This document shows positions 4,060-33,277 of a stretch of 64,000 nucleotides of DNA, piece by piece. The notes under the pieces are model-generated. The model saw only the letters and a program-made list of their open reading frames with translations, was not told where the DNA came from and searched no databases. The translations under genes were made by a program, and so were the position numbers. Source of the DNA: Desulfovibrio fairfieldensis (GTDB taxonomy: Bacteria > Desulfobacterota > Desulfovibrionia > Desulfovibrionales > Desulfovibrionaceae); assembly GCF_001553605.1 (NCBI RefSeq), contig NZ_CP014229.1, positions 3,066,501 through 3,130,500 of the forward strand, given 5' to 3'. Each line of letters starts with the position of its first letter. The stretch's first letter is position 1.

Positions 4060-6303
4060 ATGTTGCAGGATATTTTCAATCCCACCAGGGTCACAGCCCA
4101 GGTGGGCGGCAAGGAAGTCATTTTTGAATGCGGCCGTCTGGCCAATCAGGCCCACGGCGCGGTCTGGATGCAGTGCGGCGGCACGGTGGTGCTGGTCACG
4201 GTCTGCTCCCAGCCCCTGGAATTCGACAAGGGCTTTTTCCCGCTTACGGTGGAATATTCCGAAAAAATGTACGCCGCCGGACGCATTCCCGGCAGCTTCT
4301 TCCGGCGCGAGATCGGCCGTCCCTCGGAGCGTGAAACCCTGGTTTCCCGCCTCATCGACCGGCCCATCCGCCCGCTCTTTCCCAAAGGCCTGAACGAGGA
4401 CGTCCAGGTGCTGGCCAGCGTGATTTCCGCCGACCAGGAGAACGAGTCCGACGTGCTGGCCCTGACCGGCGCGTCGGCGGCCTTGATGGTTTCGCCCCTG
4501 CCCTTTGAGGGCCCGGTGGCGGGCGGGCGCATCGGCCGGGTCAACGGCCAGTTTGTGCTCAATCCCTCCTTTGAGCAGCAGGCCCAGAGCGACCTGAACA
4601 TCCTTTTCGCGGCCTCGCGCGACGCCCTGACCATGGTGGAGGGCGATGCCCGCTTCCTGTCCGAGGATGTAATCATCGAGGCTCTGGACTGGGGCCGCAA
4701 GGAAATCCAGCCGCTCATCGACGCCCAGCTTCAGCTGCGCGAACTCTGCGGCAAGGCCAAGATGGCCTTCACCCCGCATGAGGACGATCCCGCCCTGCTG
4801 GCGCGGGTGCATGAGCTGGCCCGCGAGGCCGGCATCGAGGACGCCCTGCGCGTGCCGGACAAGCTAGAACGCAAGGACGCCCGCAAGGCCGTGAAGGGAA
4901 AAGTCATGGAGGCCCTCAAGGCCGACCCGGCCTGGGCCGAGAACGAAGCCGCGCTGAAGAGCGTGGGCGACATCATCGGCGACCTGGAAAAGAAGTTGGT
5001 GCGCGCCCGCATCGTCAACGAGGGCACGCGCATCGACGGACGCGACACCAAAAGCGTGCGCCCCATCCAGATCCAGACGGGCGTGCTGCCCCGGGCCCAC
5101 GGCTCGGCGCTGTTCCGCCGGGGCGAGACCAAGTCCCTGGTTATCGCCACCCTGGGTTCCTCCACGGATGAGCAGCGCATGGACTCGCTCACCGGCGACG
5201 TGACCAAGCGCTTCATGCTGCACTACAACTTTCCGCCCTACTGCGTGGGCGAAGTGAAGCCCGTGCGCGTGTCGCGCCGTGAAATCGGCCACGGCGCCCT
5301 GGCGGAAAAATCCCTGCGGCCCATTCTTCCGGCGGACGCGGATTTCCCCTTCACCCTGCGGGTGGTGGCCGAAACCATGGAATCCAACGGTTCCTCCTCC
5401 ATGGCCGCGGTCTGCGGCGGCTCCCTGTCGCTGATGGACGCGGGCGTGCCGGTCAGCGCGCCGGTGGCCGGCGTGGCCATGGGCCTGATCAAGGAAGGCG
5501 AAAAATTCATCGTGCTCACCGACATTCTGGGCGATGAGGACGCGCTGGGCGACATGGACTTCAAGATCGCGGGCACGGCCGACGGCGTGACCGGCGTGCA
5601 GATGGACATCAAGATCACCGGCCTGACCACGGACATCATGCGCGCCGCCATGCGGCAGGCACGCGAAGGCCGCCTGCACATCCTGGCCGAAATGGCCAGG
5701 GCCATCGCCGAGCCGCGCAAGGAGCTTTCGCGCTTCGCGCCGCAGCACGCCGAAGTCTTTGTGAACCCGGACATCATCCGTCTGATCATCGGCCCCGGCG
5801 GCAAGAACATCAAAGCTATCACGGCCGCCACCGGCGCGTCCGTGGACATCGAGGATTCGGGCCGGGTGTCCATTTTCGCGCCCACGGCCGAAGCCCTGGA
5901 AAAGGCCCGCGAAATGGTGGCCTACTACGACCAGCGCCCCGACCTGGGCAAGAACTACCTGGCCAAGGTCCGCAAGGTCATGGAAATCGGGGCCATTGTG
6001 GAAGTGCTGCCCAATGTGGAAGCCCTGGTCCATGTGTCCCAGTTGGATGTGAACCGCGTGGAGCAGCCCGGCGACGTGGCGCGCCTGGGCGAGGACATGC
6101 TGGTCAAGGTCATTGAGATCAACGGAGACCGCATCCGCGCCAGCCGCAAGGCCGTACTCCTGGAAGAGCAGGGCCATCCCTGGAATCCCGAGGAAACCGC
6201 CCGCCCGCCGCGTTCCGACCGCGGCGACAGGGGCGACCGGCATGACCGCGGCGGACGCGGCCGGGATCGCGGCGACCGTGGTGATCGCGGCGGACGTCGC
6301 TGA
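4060..6303 (+). CDS. pnp: Polynucleotide phosphorylase
   Basis: PNPase, 747 residues, a trimeric 3'-5' phosphorolytic exoribonuclease that degrades mRNA and small RNAs. Two RNase PH-like cores surround an alpha-helical linker (first core about 10-225, second about 335-550). The KH domain (IIGPGGKNIKAITAATGASV) begins near residue 575 and the S1 domain follows to about 700. The tail (about 718-747) is an Arg-Gly-Asp-rich low-complexity stretch built from short RGDRGD-like repeats, which probably adds RNA affinity. The ATG at 4060 has AAAGGA about 8 bases upstream. It lies in the conserved rpsO-pnp arrangement, with an intervening hairpin that may mediate autoregulation. Confidence 0.97.
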   Translation: MLQDIFNPTRVTAQVGGKEVIFECGRLANQAHGAVWMQCGGTVVLVTVCSQPLEFDKGFFPLTVEYSEKMYAAGRIPGSFFRREIGRPSERETLVSRLIDRPIRPLFPKGLNEDVQVLASVISADQENESDVLALTGASAALMVSPLPFEGPVAGGRIGRVNGQFVLNPSFEQQAQSDLNILFAASRDALTMVEGDARFLSEDVIIEALDWGRKEIQPLIDAQLQLRELCGKAKMAFTPHEDDPALLARVHELAREAGIEDALRVPDKLERKDARKAVKGKVMEALKADPAWAENEAALKSVGDIIGDLEKKLVRARIVNEGTRIDGRDTKSVRPIQIQTGVLPRAHGSALFRRGETKSLVIATLGSSTDEQRMDSLTGDVTKRFMLHYNFPPYCVGEVKPVRVSRREIGHGALAEKSLRPILPADADFPFTLRVVAETMESNGSSSMAAVCGGSLSLMDAGVPVSAPVAGVAMGLIKEGEKFIVLTDILGDEDALGDMDFKIAGTADGVTGVQMDIKITGLTTDIMRAAMRQAREGRLHILAEMARAIAEPRKELSRFAPQHAEVFVNPDIIRLIIGPGGKNIKAITAATGASVDIEDSGRVSIFAPTAEALEKAREMVAYYDQRPDLGKNYLAKVRKVMEIGAIVEVLPNVEALVHVSQLDVNRVEQPGDVARLGEDMLVKVIEINGDRIRASRKAVLLEEQGHPWNPEETARPPRSDRGDRGDRHDRGGRGRDRGDRGDRGGRR

Positions 6304-28102: not shown

Positions 28103-28114
28103 TATACAATTCAT

Positions 28115-28294
28115 CGACAGATGTACTGTCAATGAGTTATTGAATAATGATACTTTCAGCCGCATAAATTTGCAATAGCATCTCGCTGATAAAAAATTCC
28201 CAATTTCTACTTTATAAAAATACTCATTATTTCATCAAGATAGCTCTCCCACAAATTCTCGAAGCCCAGCCGGAAACCGACAGTACATCTGTCG
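28115..28294. promoter_or_regulatory. Candidate invertible promoter upstream of the autotransporter
   Basis: A 16-bp perfect inverted repeat (CGACAGATGTACTGTC at 28115-28130; its reverse complement at 28279-28294) encloses 148 AT-rich bases. Each arm is itself a GACAG-N5-CTGTC dyad. Inside, the plus strand has TTGAAT (28140-28145)-17 bp-CATAAA (28163-28168) facing the autotransporter. The minus strand has the better TTGATG (28238-28233)-16 bp-TATAAA (28216-28211) facing away. Inversion would exchange which promoter drives the gene. No recombinase gene is adjacent, so a trans-acting invertase would be needed. The alternative is two operator sites for one regulator. Confidence 0.5.
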
Positions 28295-28303
28295 GTAAAG
28301 GAA

Positions 28304-28348
28304 AGGAGCATTGGGCTCCGTATGAATTCTTGAGGAGCGGATGCTCCT
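28304..28348 (+). promoter_or_regulatory. Leader hairpin and ribosome-binding site of the autotransporter
   Basis: AGGAGCAT (28304-28311) pairs with ATGCTCCT (28341-28348), and inner GCTCC with GGAGC, placing a stable stem one base ahead of the GGGAGG ribosome-binding site (28349-28354). The 3' arm could alternatively pair with that site, so translation control is conceivable. Confidence 0.45.
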
Positions 28349-28360
28349 GGGAGGTATGCT

Positions 28361-31300
28361 ATGCTGACGAAGGGCGCTATCGGCAATCTTGTTAACAAAT
28401 ACCGGGCTGTACTCAAAAAATGCGGCCTGCTCAATGTCTTCGGCTCGTTGGCCGTGGCCGGGGCGCTGGTCCTGGGCGGCGCGGGTCTGGCCGTGGCGGC
28501 GGTTCCTTGGGGGGCGGATCAGGATGTGGTGATTGAGAGCTCGGTATCCGTGACACAGAGCGAGCAAGCCAAAAACCTGACCATCGGCGGCGCGGGCAAC
28601 AGCCTGACCGTCAGTTCCAGCACCGGCCATCTCTATGTGAGCGGTGCGACCACCCTGAATGACGGCGGCATGCTGACCCTCAATACCGGCCCGCACGGCC
28701 TGCTGGGCACCACGGACAACGCCAGCGAGGCGGCCGACACCTGGACCGGCTCCTTTGGCATGACCGGCGGCAAGCTGGAAATTAGCAGCAGCCAGTTGCA
28801 GATGGATGCCGTAACTATCAGCGGCGGCACGGCCAACATTGCCGGGCGGATCGGCGGCGGCACCAACTGGGATGACGGGGCCATGCTGGTGGGCGGCCTG
28901 AACGGCGCGGCCACCACCGTAAGCGGCGGCAAAATCACCGTGGGTGACTACGGCCAAGTGGTGGGCGGACAGGTCAACATCAGCGGCGGCGAAGTGGCGT
29001 TGGGCGGCGACAGCGGCAAGGCCGCCATTTTGCGCTCTTACGGCGCGGACAACGCCCTGACCCTCACCGGCAACGGCAAAATCAGCGTGTCTGCCTCCAA
29101 GTATGGCGTGCTGACCGCCAATGCGGTCAACATCAACGGCGGCACCCTGGACGTGAAGGGCAACCTGACCCTGGCCGGTGCGCTGGCCAAGAAACAAGGC
29201 CTTGCCAACGCCCTCAAGGCCAGCGGCGACGCCACGGTCAACCAGACCGGCGGCACGGTGGCGGTGGCGGCTGGCGGCGCGCTGAACATCAATAGAGGCG
29301 TGGAATACAATCTCAGCGGCGGCACGCTGAGCAGCGCGGGGACCCTGCATGTTGAAGGCGAACTCAATCTGAACGGCAATGTGGCGTTGACAGATCTGAC
29401 GGCCGGGACAGGCAAGGTCTATCTCGGTTACGATCCTGATGGCTATGGCGCGGACCAGAACGGATATGCCAAGATTCGTCTGGGTACGGCTGAAAATGTC
29501 ACTCTGGCCACTTCGACTTTGGGCGATAAGAGTGACGGCAAATCGATTACAGTGGATGCCAACGGCAGCCTTCAGGTCCAGAATCTGACTTTGACCGGTG
29601 ATTCTCTGTCGATCAATAAAAAGGGAAGAATCAAGGTCAACAGCCTGACCCTGACGCCGAACGCTGCTCAAGCCTTCACCCTGTCCTCCGGCCAACTCAT
29701 GCTCAAGGGCGAAGACGGTTCTTCAACGCTTTCCGTCGGAGGCACGGGCGGCCTGAAAGTCGACGGCAGCAGCAGTAACGCCGAACTGAAGCTGGGCGAG
29801 GTGAAGTCTGACGGCACGGTCAATCCCGGCGGCAGCCTGAATGCCGACATTACGGCCACGGGCAACAACGCCAAGGTGACTGTGAACGGTGGAGCCTGGA
29901 CCCTGGCCGAGGGCAAAACCCTGGACATCCAGGGCGGCGCGCTCACCGTGGGCGGCGGAACGGACATCGACTACGCGGGCAACCTTCCCGCCGAGCTGGA
30001 TGTGAGCAAAGGCACGCTGAAGACCACGAACGGCGTTGCAGCCACAGTGGAAAATCTTGGGACTCTGGTTGCTTCCAAAGATTCTCTGACCACAACGACT
30101 GACTGGGACAATGTAGGCCAAGTGCTCACTATCAATGGCGGCGGCACCTTCAAGGTCAGCGGCATCGGAAGCATTACCGCCGCCGATCTTGGTACGCTCA
30201 AAACCAACCTAATGACCGGCAACGGTCTCCTTGACGTGGCCGACGCCGATATCAGCGGCGTCAGCGGCGGCAGTACTATTGCGTATACCGACGCGAAAAA
30301 ACTGAGCAATACCACCAGCGACAGCCTGCGCGAAGCCACGGTCACGGATGTGAACGGCGCTCTCTCCGGCGCATACGCGGGTGCGGAACTTCAGGCCGGG
30401 ACCACTTCCCTGAGCGTGGCCGCCAACAGCACCTTGCAGCTCTCCGGCGCGAACGGCGGCAACATCATCGCGGACGCGAGCGACAATGCGGGCGCTCTCA
30501 CGGTGGCGAACACCGGCACCGCGATTCTGGGCGAAGCGGGCAAGGACAATCAGGGCACGGTGGGCAATGTGACGCTGACCGGCACCGGCACGCTCAACGC
30601 CATGGGCAACGGCGGCGCGTCTTTCATCACCGGCGACATCACGGCCCAAACTGACGGTGGCGGCGTGATCAACGCGACCGGCGCAACCCTGAATGCCGAA
30701 GCTATCGGCGTTGCGGGAACTAAGGTCGGCACCGTCAATGCCAACAGCGGCACCATCAACGCAGCTTCCATCAACACTGACGCCCTGACCGCCGACAACG
30801 GCATAGTCAAGGCCACAGGTAACATCACTGTTACCAGCGCTGTGACCGGCCTGAACAACGGCACAATCCATTCCACCACCGGCGACGTGACCCTGACTGC
30901 TGGCGCGAGCAACGCCAGCGGTCTCATTGAGGCCACCTTGGGTGAGATTAATGCTGGCAGTTCTAGCATCACCGCCGCCTCCGGCAAAAGTCTGAACCTG
31001 TATGGGCTTGAAAAAATTACCGCTGGTGCCATTGAGGCCACCAGTGTCCATTCGGGCGGCATTATTGATACTCAGGTTGCAAATGGAAACGTGACGGCCA
31101 CCCAGGTGCGTGCCACTACTCTGAAGACCGGTAGCGGCACTGTGGCCATCACTGACGGTTACCTGGATCTCAGCGGGACTGGTAGCAACGCCAGCTCCGT
31201 GGGCTCTCTGGCTCTGGACAATGCCCAGGCGGTAGTGGGCGATCTGACCGTGACCAGCGCGGCGACCATTGAGGGCGGCAGCTTCACGGGCAACGCCGTG

Positions 31301-33277
31301 ACCCTGTCCGGCGGCGGCGAAATCAGCAACGGCGCGCAAGTCACGGTGGATACGCTGACCGGCGCTGGACAGACCATCAAGGTGGGTTCGGACACAGACA
31401 CCGTGGCCACCAGCCTGACGGTCAACACTCTGGACATGGCGGGCGGCAGCCTGCTTATCGACCCGGCCTGGACTTCCGGCTCCAACGTGATGGCTGTCGG
31501 CGACTTTGACAGCGGCGACATCGATGTGCTTGCGGGCGTGGGCCAGAATTCCATGCTGCTTATCGGCAGCGCGGACGCGAACTGGCTGACCTCCCAGGTC
31601 AATGCCGCGACCAACGGCGCGGGCCTGACCCGGAACGGCGTGGATTCCGTGCTGGGTATTTACAGTTCCCAGACGCTGGATAACACCAATGGCGGCATTC
31701 AGGTGGACGGCACCAAGACGAATAGCGGCGTCACTTCGCTGAGTCCCGCCGCCAACACTGCCGACTTCTCCGGCAAATCCCTGCTGGTGGTCAACGCCGA
31801 CGCGGCGACCGGCGGCAATGTGGCTCTGACCGCGACCGGCGGCACGCTCAACCTGACCGACGGGGCGAAACTGCGCATCGCCGGGGCGAAAATCGGTGCG
31901 GACTACACTGTGGTGGATGGTTTCACGACAACAAACTACCTTAAAGCTGATGGTACTACCCCCACGACCGAAGCCGACTCCACGGCCTGGGTGGGCGCGA
32001 ACCTCTCCACGGACTCCAAGCTGGTGCATCTGGAAAAGAGCGCCACCGGCGAATACAAGGGCGCGCTGACTTCCGCCGCCGCCTTCATGCCCAAGCTCGA
32101 CGGCGAACTGGTCAAGGTGGTGAACAACATGGCCCTGGCGGGCAACACCGGCACGGCCGGTGAAATGTCCGAGACCAAGGGCGTCCGATTCCTGAACCGG
32201 GCCATCAGCGAAAAATATCTGAACAATGACGCCGCTGCCGCCGTGACCATTGAAAGCGCGGCGCGCATGGCGCTCGTCGGCGCGGTGCCGCAGATGACCA
32301 TGGCGGCCAGCAACGCGGCGGGCAATGCCGTGACCCAGCGTACCAGCCTGGCCCAGCCCGGCGGCAACGCCATCCAGAGCGTGGCCCCGGACGGCTCCAT
32401 GCAAACCGGCGCTTCCGCCGGAGACGCCGCCAAGACCGGCTTCGCCATGTGGATCATGCCCCTGTACCAGAGCAGCAACGGCTACGGCATGAAGGCCGGA
32501 AACTTCGACATGGACTTCAGCGGCGGCCTGGGCGGCGTGGCCATCGGCGCGGACTACACCTTCGACAACGCCATCCGCGCGGGCATCACCTTCAACATCG
32601 GCGGCGGCTACGCCACCGGCTCCGGCGACCTCAACGAAACCACCAACAATATGAACTTCTGGGGCATCGGCGCGTATGCCGGTTGGGCCCAGAACAACTT
32701 CGGCGTGACCGCCGACGTGAACTACACCTCCACCTACAACAAGCTGGAACAGGACCTGCCCGCAAGCATGCAGATGGGCAAGCTCAAGAGCGACGTGACG
32801 GCCTACGCCATCAGTGCGGGCCTGCGCGGCGAATACAGGTTCGAAACCAGCGTCATGGACATCACCCCGCATGTAGGCGTGCGCTACATGAGCCTGAACA
32901 CCGACGAATACGACGTGAAGTCCGGCGGCACGCTGCTCAAGGGCGACGCCATCAACCAGAGCATCTGGACCTTCCCGGTGGGCGTGGCCTTCAGCAAGCA
33001 AATCGAGACGGGCAACGGCTGGCACTTCAAGCCCAGCCTGGACCTGGCCGTGATCCCGGCCGCCGGGGACATTGACGCCCGCAGCGACGTGCGCTTCACC
33101 GGCACGGGCACCAAGGCGGAACTGGACACTCAGACCATGGACTACGTCTCCTACATGGGCGGCCTGGGCCTGGAATTCGGCAACGATACCACGTCCCTGG
33201 GCGTGAACTACAACATCCAGCTCGGCGCGAAGAGCACGGCGCACGGCGTGTTCGGGACGTTCCGCTACGAGTTCTAG
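28361..33277 (+). CDS. Autotransporter adhesin-like protein (type Va secretion)
   Basis: A 1638-residue surface protein. Residues 1-47 are an extended signal peptide (MLTKGAIGNLVNKYRAVLKK, then a hydrophobic segment ending AGLAVAA), as in large autotransporters. The passenger (about 48-1300) is Gly/Thr/Asn/Ser-rich with repeated short strands such as LTLTGNGKISV and GGTLDVKGNLTLAG, typical of a right-handed beta-helix. The C-terminal beta-barrel (about 1360-1638) begins at FAMWIMPLYQSSNGYGM and ends TFRYEF with the usual terminal Phe. There are very few cysteines. No protease motif was recognised, so adhesion or aggregation is likely. A candidate invertible promoter and a leader hairpin precede it; a structured element starts on its stop codon. 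Confidence 0.93.
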   Translation: MLTKGAIGNLVNKYRAVLKKCGLLNVFGSLAVAGALVLGGAGLAVAAVPWGADQDVVIESSVSVTQSEQAKNLTIGGAGNSLTVSSSTGHLYVSGATTLNDGGMLTLNTGPHGLLGTTDNASEAADTWTGSFGMTGGKLEISSSQLQMDAVTISGGTANIAGRIGGGTNWDDGAMLVGGLNGAATTVSGGKITVGDYGQVVGGQVNISGGEVALGGDSGKAAILRSYGADNALTLTGNGKISVSASKYGVLTANAVNINGGTLDVKGNLTLAGALAKKQGLANALKASGDATVNQTGGTVAVAAGGALNINRGVEYNLSGGTLSSAGTLHVEGELNLNGNVALTDLTAGTGKVYLGYDPDGYGADQNGYAKIRLGTAENVTLATSTLGDKSDGKSITVDANGSLQVQNLTLTGDSLSINKKGRIKVNSLTLTPNAAQAFTLSSGQLMLKGEDGSSTLSVGGTGGLKVDGSSSNAELKLGEVKSDGTVNPGGSLNADITATGNNAKVTVNGGAWTLAEGKTLDIQGGALTVGGGTDIDYAGNLPAELDVSKGTLKTTNGVAATVENLGTLVASKDSLTTTTDWDNVGQVLTINGGGTFKVSGIGSITAADLGTLKTNLMTGNGLLDVADADISGVSGGSTIAYTDAKKLSNTTSDSLREATVTDVNGALSGAYAGAELQAGTTSLSVAANSTLQLSGANGGNIIADASDNAGALTVANTGTAILGEAGKDNQGTVGNVTLTGTGTLNAMGNGGASFITGDITAQTDGGGVINATGATLNAEAIGVAGTKVGTVNANSGTINAASINTDALTADNGIVKATGNITVTSAVTGLNNGTIHSTTGDVTLTAGASNASGLIEATLGEINAGSSSITAASGKSLNLYGLEKITAGAIEATSVHSGGIIDTQVANGNVTATQVRATTLKTGSGTVAITDGYLDLSGTGSNASSVGSLALDNAQAVVGDLTVTSAATIEGGSFTGNAVTLSGGGEISNGAQVTVDTLTGAGQTIKVGSDTDTVATSLTVNTLDMAGGSLLIDPAWTSGSNVMAVGDFDSGDIDVLAGVGQNSMLLIGSADANWLTSQVNAATNGAGLTRNGVDSVLGIYSSQTLDNTNGGIQVDGTKTNSGVTSLSPAANTADFSGKSLLVVNADAATGGNVALTATGGTLNLTDGAKLRIAGAKIGADYTVVDGFTTTNYLKADGTTPTTEADSTAWVGANLSTDSKLVHLEKSATGEYKGALTSAAAFMPKLDGELVKVVNNMALAGNTGTAGEMSETKGVRFLNRAISEKYLNNDAAAAVTIESAARMALVGAVPQMTMAASNAAGNAVTQRTSLAQPGGNAIQSVAPDGSMQTGASAGDAAKTGFAMWIMPLYQSSNGYGMKAGNFDMDFSGGLGGVAIGADYTFDNAIRAGITFNIGGGYATGSGDLNETTNNMNFWGIGAYAGWAQNNFGVTADVNYTSTYNKLEQDLPASMQMGKLKSDVTAYAISAGLRGEYRFETSVMDITPHVGVRYMSLNTDEYDVKSGGTLLKGDAINQSIWTFPVGVAFSKQIETGNGWHFKPSLDLAVIPAAGDIDARSDVRFTGTGTKAELDTQTMDYVSYMGGLGLEFGNDTTSLGVNYNIQLGAKSTAHGVFGTFRYEF

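Follow-up and report, generated by a model that had tools for sequence, protein, structure and literature searches.

Anatomy of the segment upstream of the autotransporter gene

The stretch of DNA analysed here (64 kb of the Desulfovibrio fairfieldensis genome, hereafter the window) contains an autotransporter gene that is preceded by a perfect 16-bp inverted repeat. The repeat is formed by CGACAGATGTACTGTC at 28115-28130 and its reverse complement at 28279-28294, with 148 bp between the arms, and it ends 66 bp upstream of the ATG of the gene (Table 1). These features agreed base for base with the initial annotation, which had also described a GACAG-N5-CTGTC dyad in each arm, and both dyads were seen in the sequence. 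The identity that it had given to the downstream gene was confirmed by a PF03797 beta-domain at residues 1364-1618 of the product (E 2.7e-34). No other perfect 16-bp inverted repeat with a loop of 40-300 bp occurs in the window, and none was found in 50 shuffles. Hence, the repeat is not due to chance. As in an inverton, short inverted repeats flank an intergenic segment that precedes a gene.

Two small GGAGC/GCTCC hairpins (28305-28319 and 28334-28347) lie between the gene-proximal arm and the ribosome binding site. Upstream of the repeat, on the minus strand, the window carries a YefM-YoeB type toxin-antitoxin pair (PF02604 and PF06769, 27344-27897), which has a promoter-like site of its own (27913-27885).

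Table 1. Features of the putative switch and of the gene that it precedes (window coordinates)
Feature	Position	Strand	Description	Basis
Distal recombination site (predicted)	28111..28135		TCATC GACAG-ATGTA-CTGTC AATGA; half-sites around a 5-nt spacer; one outer-dyad mismatch	Sequence; same site in 49 elements; spacer agrees with the other arm
Gene-proximal recombination site (predicted)	28276..28296		ACC GACAG-TACAT-CTGTC GGT; inverted relative to the distal site	Sequence; spacer identical to that of the distal arm; spacer covariation across loci
Proposed invertible segment	28121..28288		Between both 5-nt spacers, spacers included	Homologues: 4 copies in own genome; relatives with both orientations relative to flanks
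Promoter-like pair P1	28147..28175	-	-35 TTGCAA (28175-28170); 17-nt spacer; -10 TATCAT (28152-28147)	Found independently by promoter scan
Ribosome binding site of the autotransporter gene	28350..28355	+	GGAGGT	Sequence
Autotransporter gene	28361..33277	+	1638 aa; proposed controlled gene	

Four homologous segments in the same genome

The genome, a single contig of 3.70 Mb, was searched for GACAG-N5-CTGTC and then with a relaxed pattern. Paired sites of 178-180 bp were present at four places, namely at 484 kb, 2.38 Mb, 2.86 Mb and in the window. The initial annotation had suggested looking for further pairs, and three sister pairs were thus obtained. Single sites at 868 kb, 2.31 Mb, 3.03 Mb and 3.33 Mb were dropped because they had no matching partner. 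The four segments are homologous, each directly precedes an autotransporter gene, and these genes share the leader MLTKGAIGNLVNKYRAVLKKC. A PF03797 scan of the genome returned four full autotransporters and one sub-threshold match, with an element before every one of the four full ones. The leader around the two GGAGC/GCTCC hairpins is well conserved among the four copies.

Across the four loci, the fourth base of the spacer reads C, G, T and T, and the two arms never differ within a locus. A view in which every locus of a genome has a spacer of its own was rejected, since ATGTA occurs both in the window and in the 2.86-Mb copy and since two other genomes (G031 and G063) also repeat spacers. 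The window element and the copy at C1:2860707-2860886 have, besides this spacer, near-identical outer flanks, and they lie in opposite directions 234 kb apart. With a shared spacer and opposite directions, recombination between them could therefore invert a large part of the chromosome.

Matched spacers in elements of the Desulfovibrionaceae

With a pattern in which the spacers were left free, paired sites were detected in 28 of 288 genomes of the family, 7 of the 28 holding only chance matches, with spacers unmatched between the arms. We collected 49 elements in 21 genomes, up to ten of them in one genome; the named relatives were Desulfovibrio and Mailhella. The strict pair was absent from 60 genomes of other families of the order. 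The ACAG/CTGT half-sites were built into the search and hence do not count as evidence in their own right. Spacer identity and the internal motif described below were outside the search criteria, save for a filter that admitted at most one spacer mismatch per pair, and the pairs rejected by this filter are the visible chance matches.

The two arms shared their spacer in 48 of the 49 elements, whereas 20,000 shuffles gave 2.8 such pairs on average and 11 at most, and 30 different spacers were present. In the one exception, L105, a third site about 34 bp further out has a spacer that matches exactly. This locus (around 5220-5290), which precedes a polyketide synthase gene, has two different spacers among its three sites and is possibly a nested double switch. 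At two further loci, the base adjoining the spacer was also altered in both arms, so the matched region may be 6 nt. Judged from these comparisons, a spacer that is matched within the pair and variable between loci is the signature of a strand-exchange overlap.

Two readings without recombination were weighed against this pattern. If the arms were paired operators, spaced by roughly 164 bp, at which a dimeric regulator looped the DNA between them, the dyad in each arm and the nearly constant distance between the arms at most loci would be accounted for. The central 5 nt of such operators, however, need not match between the arms while varying among loci, and the linked tyrosine recombinase and the flipped segments at homologous loci (see below) would be left unexplained, so that we regard this reading as highly unlikely. 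It is extremely improbable, in our view, that the arms act in the RNA of a leader, each folded into a hairpin or both paired together, with the matching spacers reflecting base pairing. The arms do fold into stable hairpins, and the spacer changes are compensatory as RNA pairs too, but no one-sided spacer change (counting the third site of L105) and no G-U pair occurred among the 49 pairs, the switch region gave no Rfam match, and the recombinase linkage would again lack an explanation. Moreover, because the promoter-like site sits between the arms, a transcript from P1 would not contain both of them.

The elements precede genes for autotransporters, flagellin, GT2 and other glycosyltransferases, DegT aminotransferases and SIS-CBS sugar-phosphate isomerases, which we take to be KpsF-like, as well as polyketide synthases and a chemoreceptor. 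The target was taken as the nearest open reading frame, an assignment that is uncertain at some loci; so defined, the predicted targets are largely surface or glycan genes.

A conserved promoter-like pair and the predicted OFF state

The elements of the family carry a conserved motif, TTGGCAA or TTTGCAA, at an offset of about 52 from one segment end. On the opposite strand this reads as TTGCCA or TTGCAA, 17 nt and TATNNN, a consensus match for an outward sigma-70-like promoter (P1). In a free scan, the best promoter pair fell at the place of P1 within one base, with a 17-nt spacer, in 32 of the 49 elements. The window P1 reads left, away from the autotransporter gene, and the sequenced state is therefore probably OFF. 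The same probably holds for all four copies of the genome.

An OFF state had been proposed in the initial annotation from two other promoter boxes, and the comparative evidence favoured that state. Both boxes exist, TTGAAT-17-CATAAA on the plus strand (28141-28169) and TTGATG-16-TATAAA on the minus strand (28238-28211), and the one judged better points away from the gene, as P1 does; neither is conserved among relatives.

In the present orientation, P1 reads toward the YefM-YoeB pair in the sense direction. Many elements (L066, L104, L114, L119 and L124 among them) have GATTTTTT or GGTTTTTT on the inner side of the arm that lies opposite the promoter, and this arm with its T run resembles an intrinsic terminator carried on the invertible segment. 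A built-in terminator of this kind (GACAG-N5-CTGTC-GATTTTTT, on the non-promoter arm) was rejected here as a general feature, as the copies of the window's own genome have no T run.

A tyrosine recombinase linked to the elements

Immediately beside the 484-kb element lies the gene of a 320-aa tyrosine recombinase (PF00589, E 6.9e-31; C1:484163-485122). The window's genome has exactly one copy, with an intact reading frame, about 2.6 Mb from the window element in contig coordinates. The initial annotation had expected a recombinase acting in trans, with none adjoining the window copy, and had suggested looking for a lone invertase; a matching enzyme was thus located beside a sister element. The recombinase found beside elements is of the tyrosine type, as at L005. 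Members of the same subfamily adjoin about half of the 49 elements, are mostly 55-77% identical and are transcribed toward the element. The catalytic R, K, HxxR, H and Y are present, and these residues are invariant in 7 relatives. A recombinase of about 50% identity or more was encoded in 20 of the 21 genomes with elements, compared with 11 of the 267 without (Fisher p 5e-22). Linkage and co-occurrence point to this subfamily as the site-specific recombinase matched to the sites. Some copies in other genomes had no exact site pair nearby; degenerate pairs were found at some of these and none at others.

On the XerC/XerD/XerA models, the recombinase of the window's genome scored 79-86 bits (a relative up to 103) against cut-offs of 220-335. 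Relatives reached 20-23 bits on the FimB/FimE-type tyrosine invertase model (PRK09870, NF007370), whose cut-off is 221, and the recombinase of the window's genome was absent from the matches listed for this model.

The genes adjoining the recombinase at 484 kb gave weak matches to phage virion models. This would suit a prophage integrase unrelated to the switches, the arm identity then stemming from template-switch correction of quasi-palindromes. Nevertheless, the arrangement of recombinase, element and autotransporter recurs in another genome (G018) with a recombinase 84% identical, and because this order is conserved, the enzyme is unlikely to be merely a prophage integrase. The same subfamily also stands beside elements in many genomes with other neighbours, and the arm identity is confined to the half-sites and spacer, without the spreading that template-switch correction would bring. 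Hence, we consider this explanation very improbable. Among viral contigs, the matches to the recombinase were remote only (28-31%).

Segment orientation in the family

The orientation of the segments relative to the recombinase gene was mixed (20 to 5, with one member of the minority, L068, resting on a gene fragment). At a locus made of recombinase, element and polyketide synthase, the predicted promoter faces the recombinase in L060 and the synthase in L109, with L108 equal to L109. The flanks of L060 and L109 aligned at the DNA level with 74% identity over 647 nt on the synthase side and with 68% on the recombinase side. Two elements of one genome, L072 and L073, carry opposite segments next to recombinase flanks that are 84% identical. 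A leave-one-out position-weight test upheld every orientation call, the weakest being L108 (14.8 bits) and L109 (15.5 bits). Homologous genes were likewise seen with the promoter in either state, both for polyketide synthases (three facing, one not) and for GT2 genes (L057 versus L071).

Two metagenome contigs, L065 and L116, consist of a flank, the segment and the reverse complement of the same flank, with the copied flank running 99 and 23 bases, respectively, to the very end of the contig. Such a structure is as expected of an assembler when the reads hold both orientations; a genuine long inverted repeat, or an artefact of amplification, could also give it and is less likely. Draft contigs ended less than 200 bp from an element in five cases versus 0.9 expected. 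Based on L060/L109, L072/L073, L065 and L116, both orientations appear to exist in the family, and the combined comparative case for inversion in the family is strong. For the window copy, we infer inversion by homology.

The counter-evidence is that the autotransporter-linked copies, all four of this genome and all those inspected in others, share one orientation relative to the gene. In addition, the distal arm of L005 and L209 is a long palindrome with arms of 18-22 bp that crosses the proposed crossover into the outer flank. This palindrome lies at 7012-7056 in L005 and its L209 counterpart in the upstream region, and paired compensating differences separate the two species. Since frequent inversion would break the palindrome, these copies may flip seldom, or selection may hold them in one state; they may be mostly OFF, or a hairpin with which the OFF transcript begins may matter.

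Both the single orientation and the palindromes, with their paired changes on both sides, would fit autotransporter copies that are locked, inversion having been lost or become very rare and the arms being fixed regulatory palindromes. This reading competes with ours only for the copies of the window's own genome. It is at odds with spacers that match between the arms at each of the four loci despite three values (T, C and G) at position 4, a pattern for which continuing exchange or constraint would be needed, and with the intact recombinase reading frame that the genome has retained. On balance, we think it unlikely that these copies are locked.

Proposed mechanism and its implications

Taking together the computed site pairs, spacer identity, conservation in the family, recombinase linkage and co-occurrence and both orientations at homologous loci, we consider it very likely that the segment is an invertible promoter flipped by the trans-encoded 484-kb tyrosine recombinase. 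As for its binding and chemistry, the recombinase would recognise (Y)GACAG half-sites flanking a 5-nt, perhaps 6-nt, overlap in each arm, pair the two inverted sites and exchange strands within the overlap, so that the segment flips. The segment would carry one conserved outward sigma-70-type promoter near one end. If this promoter is active, the D. fairfieldensis strain would be OFF in the sequenced orientation, with the promoter directed away from the autotransporter gene; once the segment is inverted, the promoter would be directed at the gene, the leader would measure about 90 nt, and the switch would be ON. One recombinase would serve all four autotransporter switches.

A more far-reaching proposal, which we put forward as a tentative possibility, is that of a dedicated system spanning the family, with one recombinase subfamily, a fixed half-site, a drifting arm-matched overlap and a regulon of surface switches that includes all full autotransporters. 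The OFF promoter would then fire antisense into the linked recombinase gene, coupling the state of the switch to the supply of the enzyme.

As the switch recurs before surface genes across the Desulfovibrionaceae, sulfate reducers of this family probably vary their surface by promoter inversion. If every full autotransporter of a gut-type sulfate reducer is indeed under such a switch, a clonal population would contain cells that differ in surface and adhesion. The 49 elements also constitute a natural alignment; the recombinase site, the overlap and the promoter can be deduced from it before any experiment, and the elements predict phase-variable surface genes for each species.

Comparison with known invertible-promoter systems

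The literature search, which covered neither supplementary or PhaseFinder inverton tables nor subscription papers, returned no paper on promoter inversion in Desulfovibrio, and it is possible that single loci are already listed in the tables of genome-wide inverton surveys. The initial annotation had pointed to gut Bacteroidetes, in which invertible promoters before surface genes are established; the host here belongs to the Desulfovibrionaceae. Its reading of the repeat as a phase-variation switch is supported by the comparative evidence. The global capsule invertase of Bacteroides, Mpi, is a serine recombinase, whereas the enzyme linked to the elements in the Desulfovibrionaceae is a tyrosine recombinase (PF00589). 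Bacteroides inverts promoters at multiple polysaccharide and outer-membrane loci, and the likeness of the proposed system lies in several surface-structure promoters inverted per genome and in a recombinase able to act in trans (PMC4747536, PMC8748976).

Clostridioides difficile has RecV-type switches (flg and cmr) and a pdcB switch, with Cdi2 measuring 174 bp and having 19-bp repeats (PMC9286219). Short invertible promoter segments, several loci per genome and a recombinase that is not beside every switch are also features of the system proposed here, but C. difficile belongs to another phylum, its repeat sequences differ, and its targets include c-di-GMP enzymes and flagella (PMC9286219).

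In Escherichia coli, an operon that includes an autotransporter gene (UpaE) is preceded by the 260-bp invertible promoter ipuS, and the fimS and ipuS switches are served by the tyrosine recombinases IpuA, IpuB, FimB, FimE and FimX, five in one strain (PMC6083910). Here the resemblance of the predicted switch comprises an invertible promoter, short inverted repeats and tyrosine recombinases, some of which act on distant elements (PMC6083910). The ipuS repeats, however, are of 7 bp and of another sequence than the Desulfovibrionaceae arms (PMC6083910). Furthermore, the Desulfovibrionaceae subfamily reached 23.3 bits at best on PRK09870 against the cut-off of 221, and one recombinase would serve several elements with variable, arm-matched spacers. 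By its anatomy and the comparative evidence, the predicted switch is thus an invertible-promoter system, and by the curated cut-off it lies outside the FimB/FimE model.
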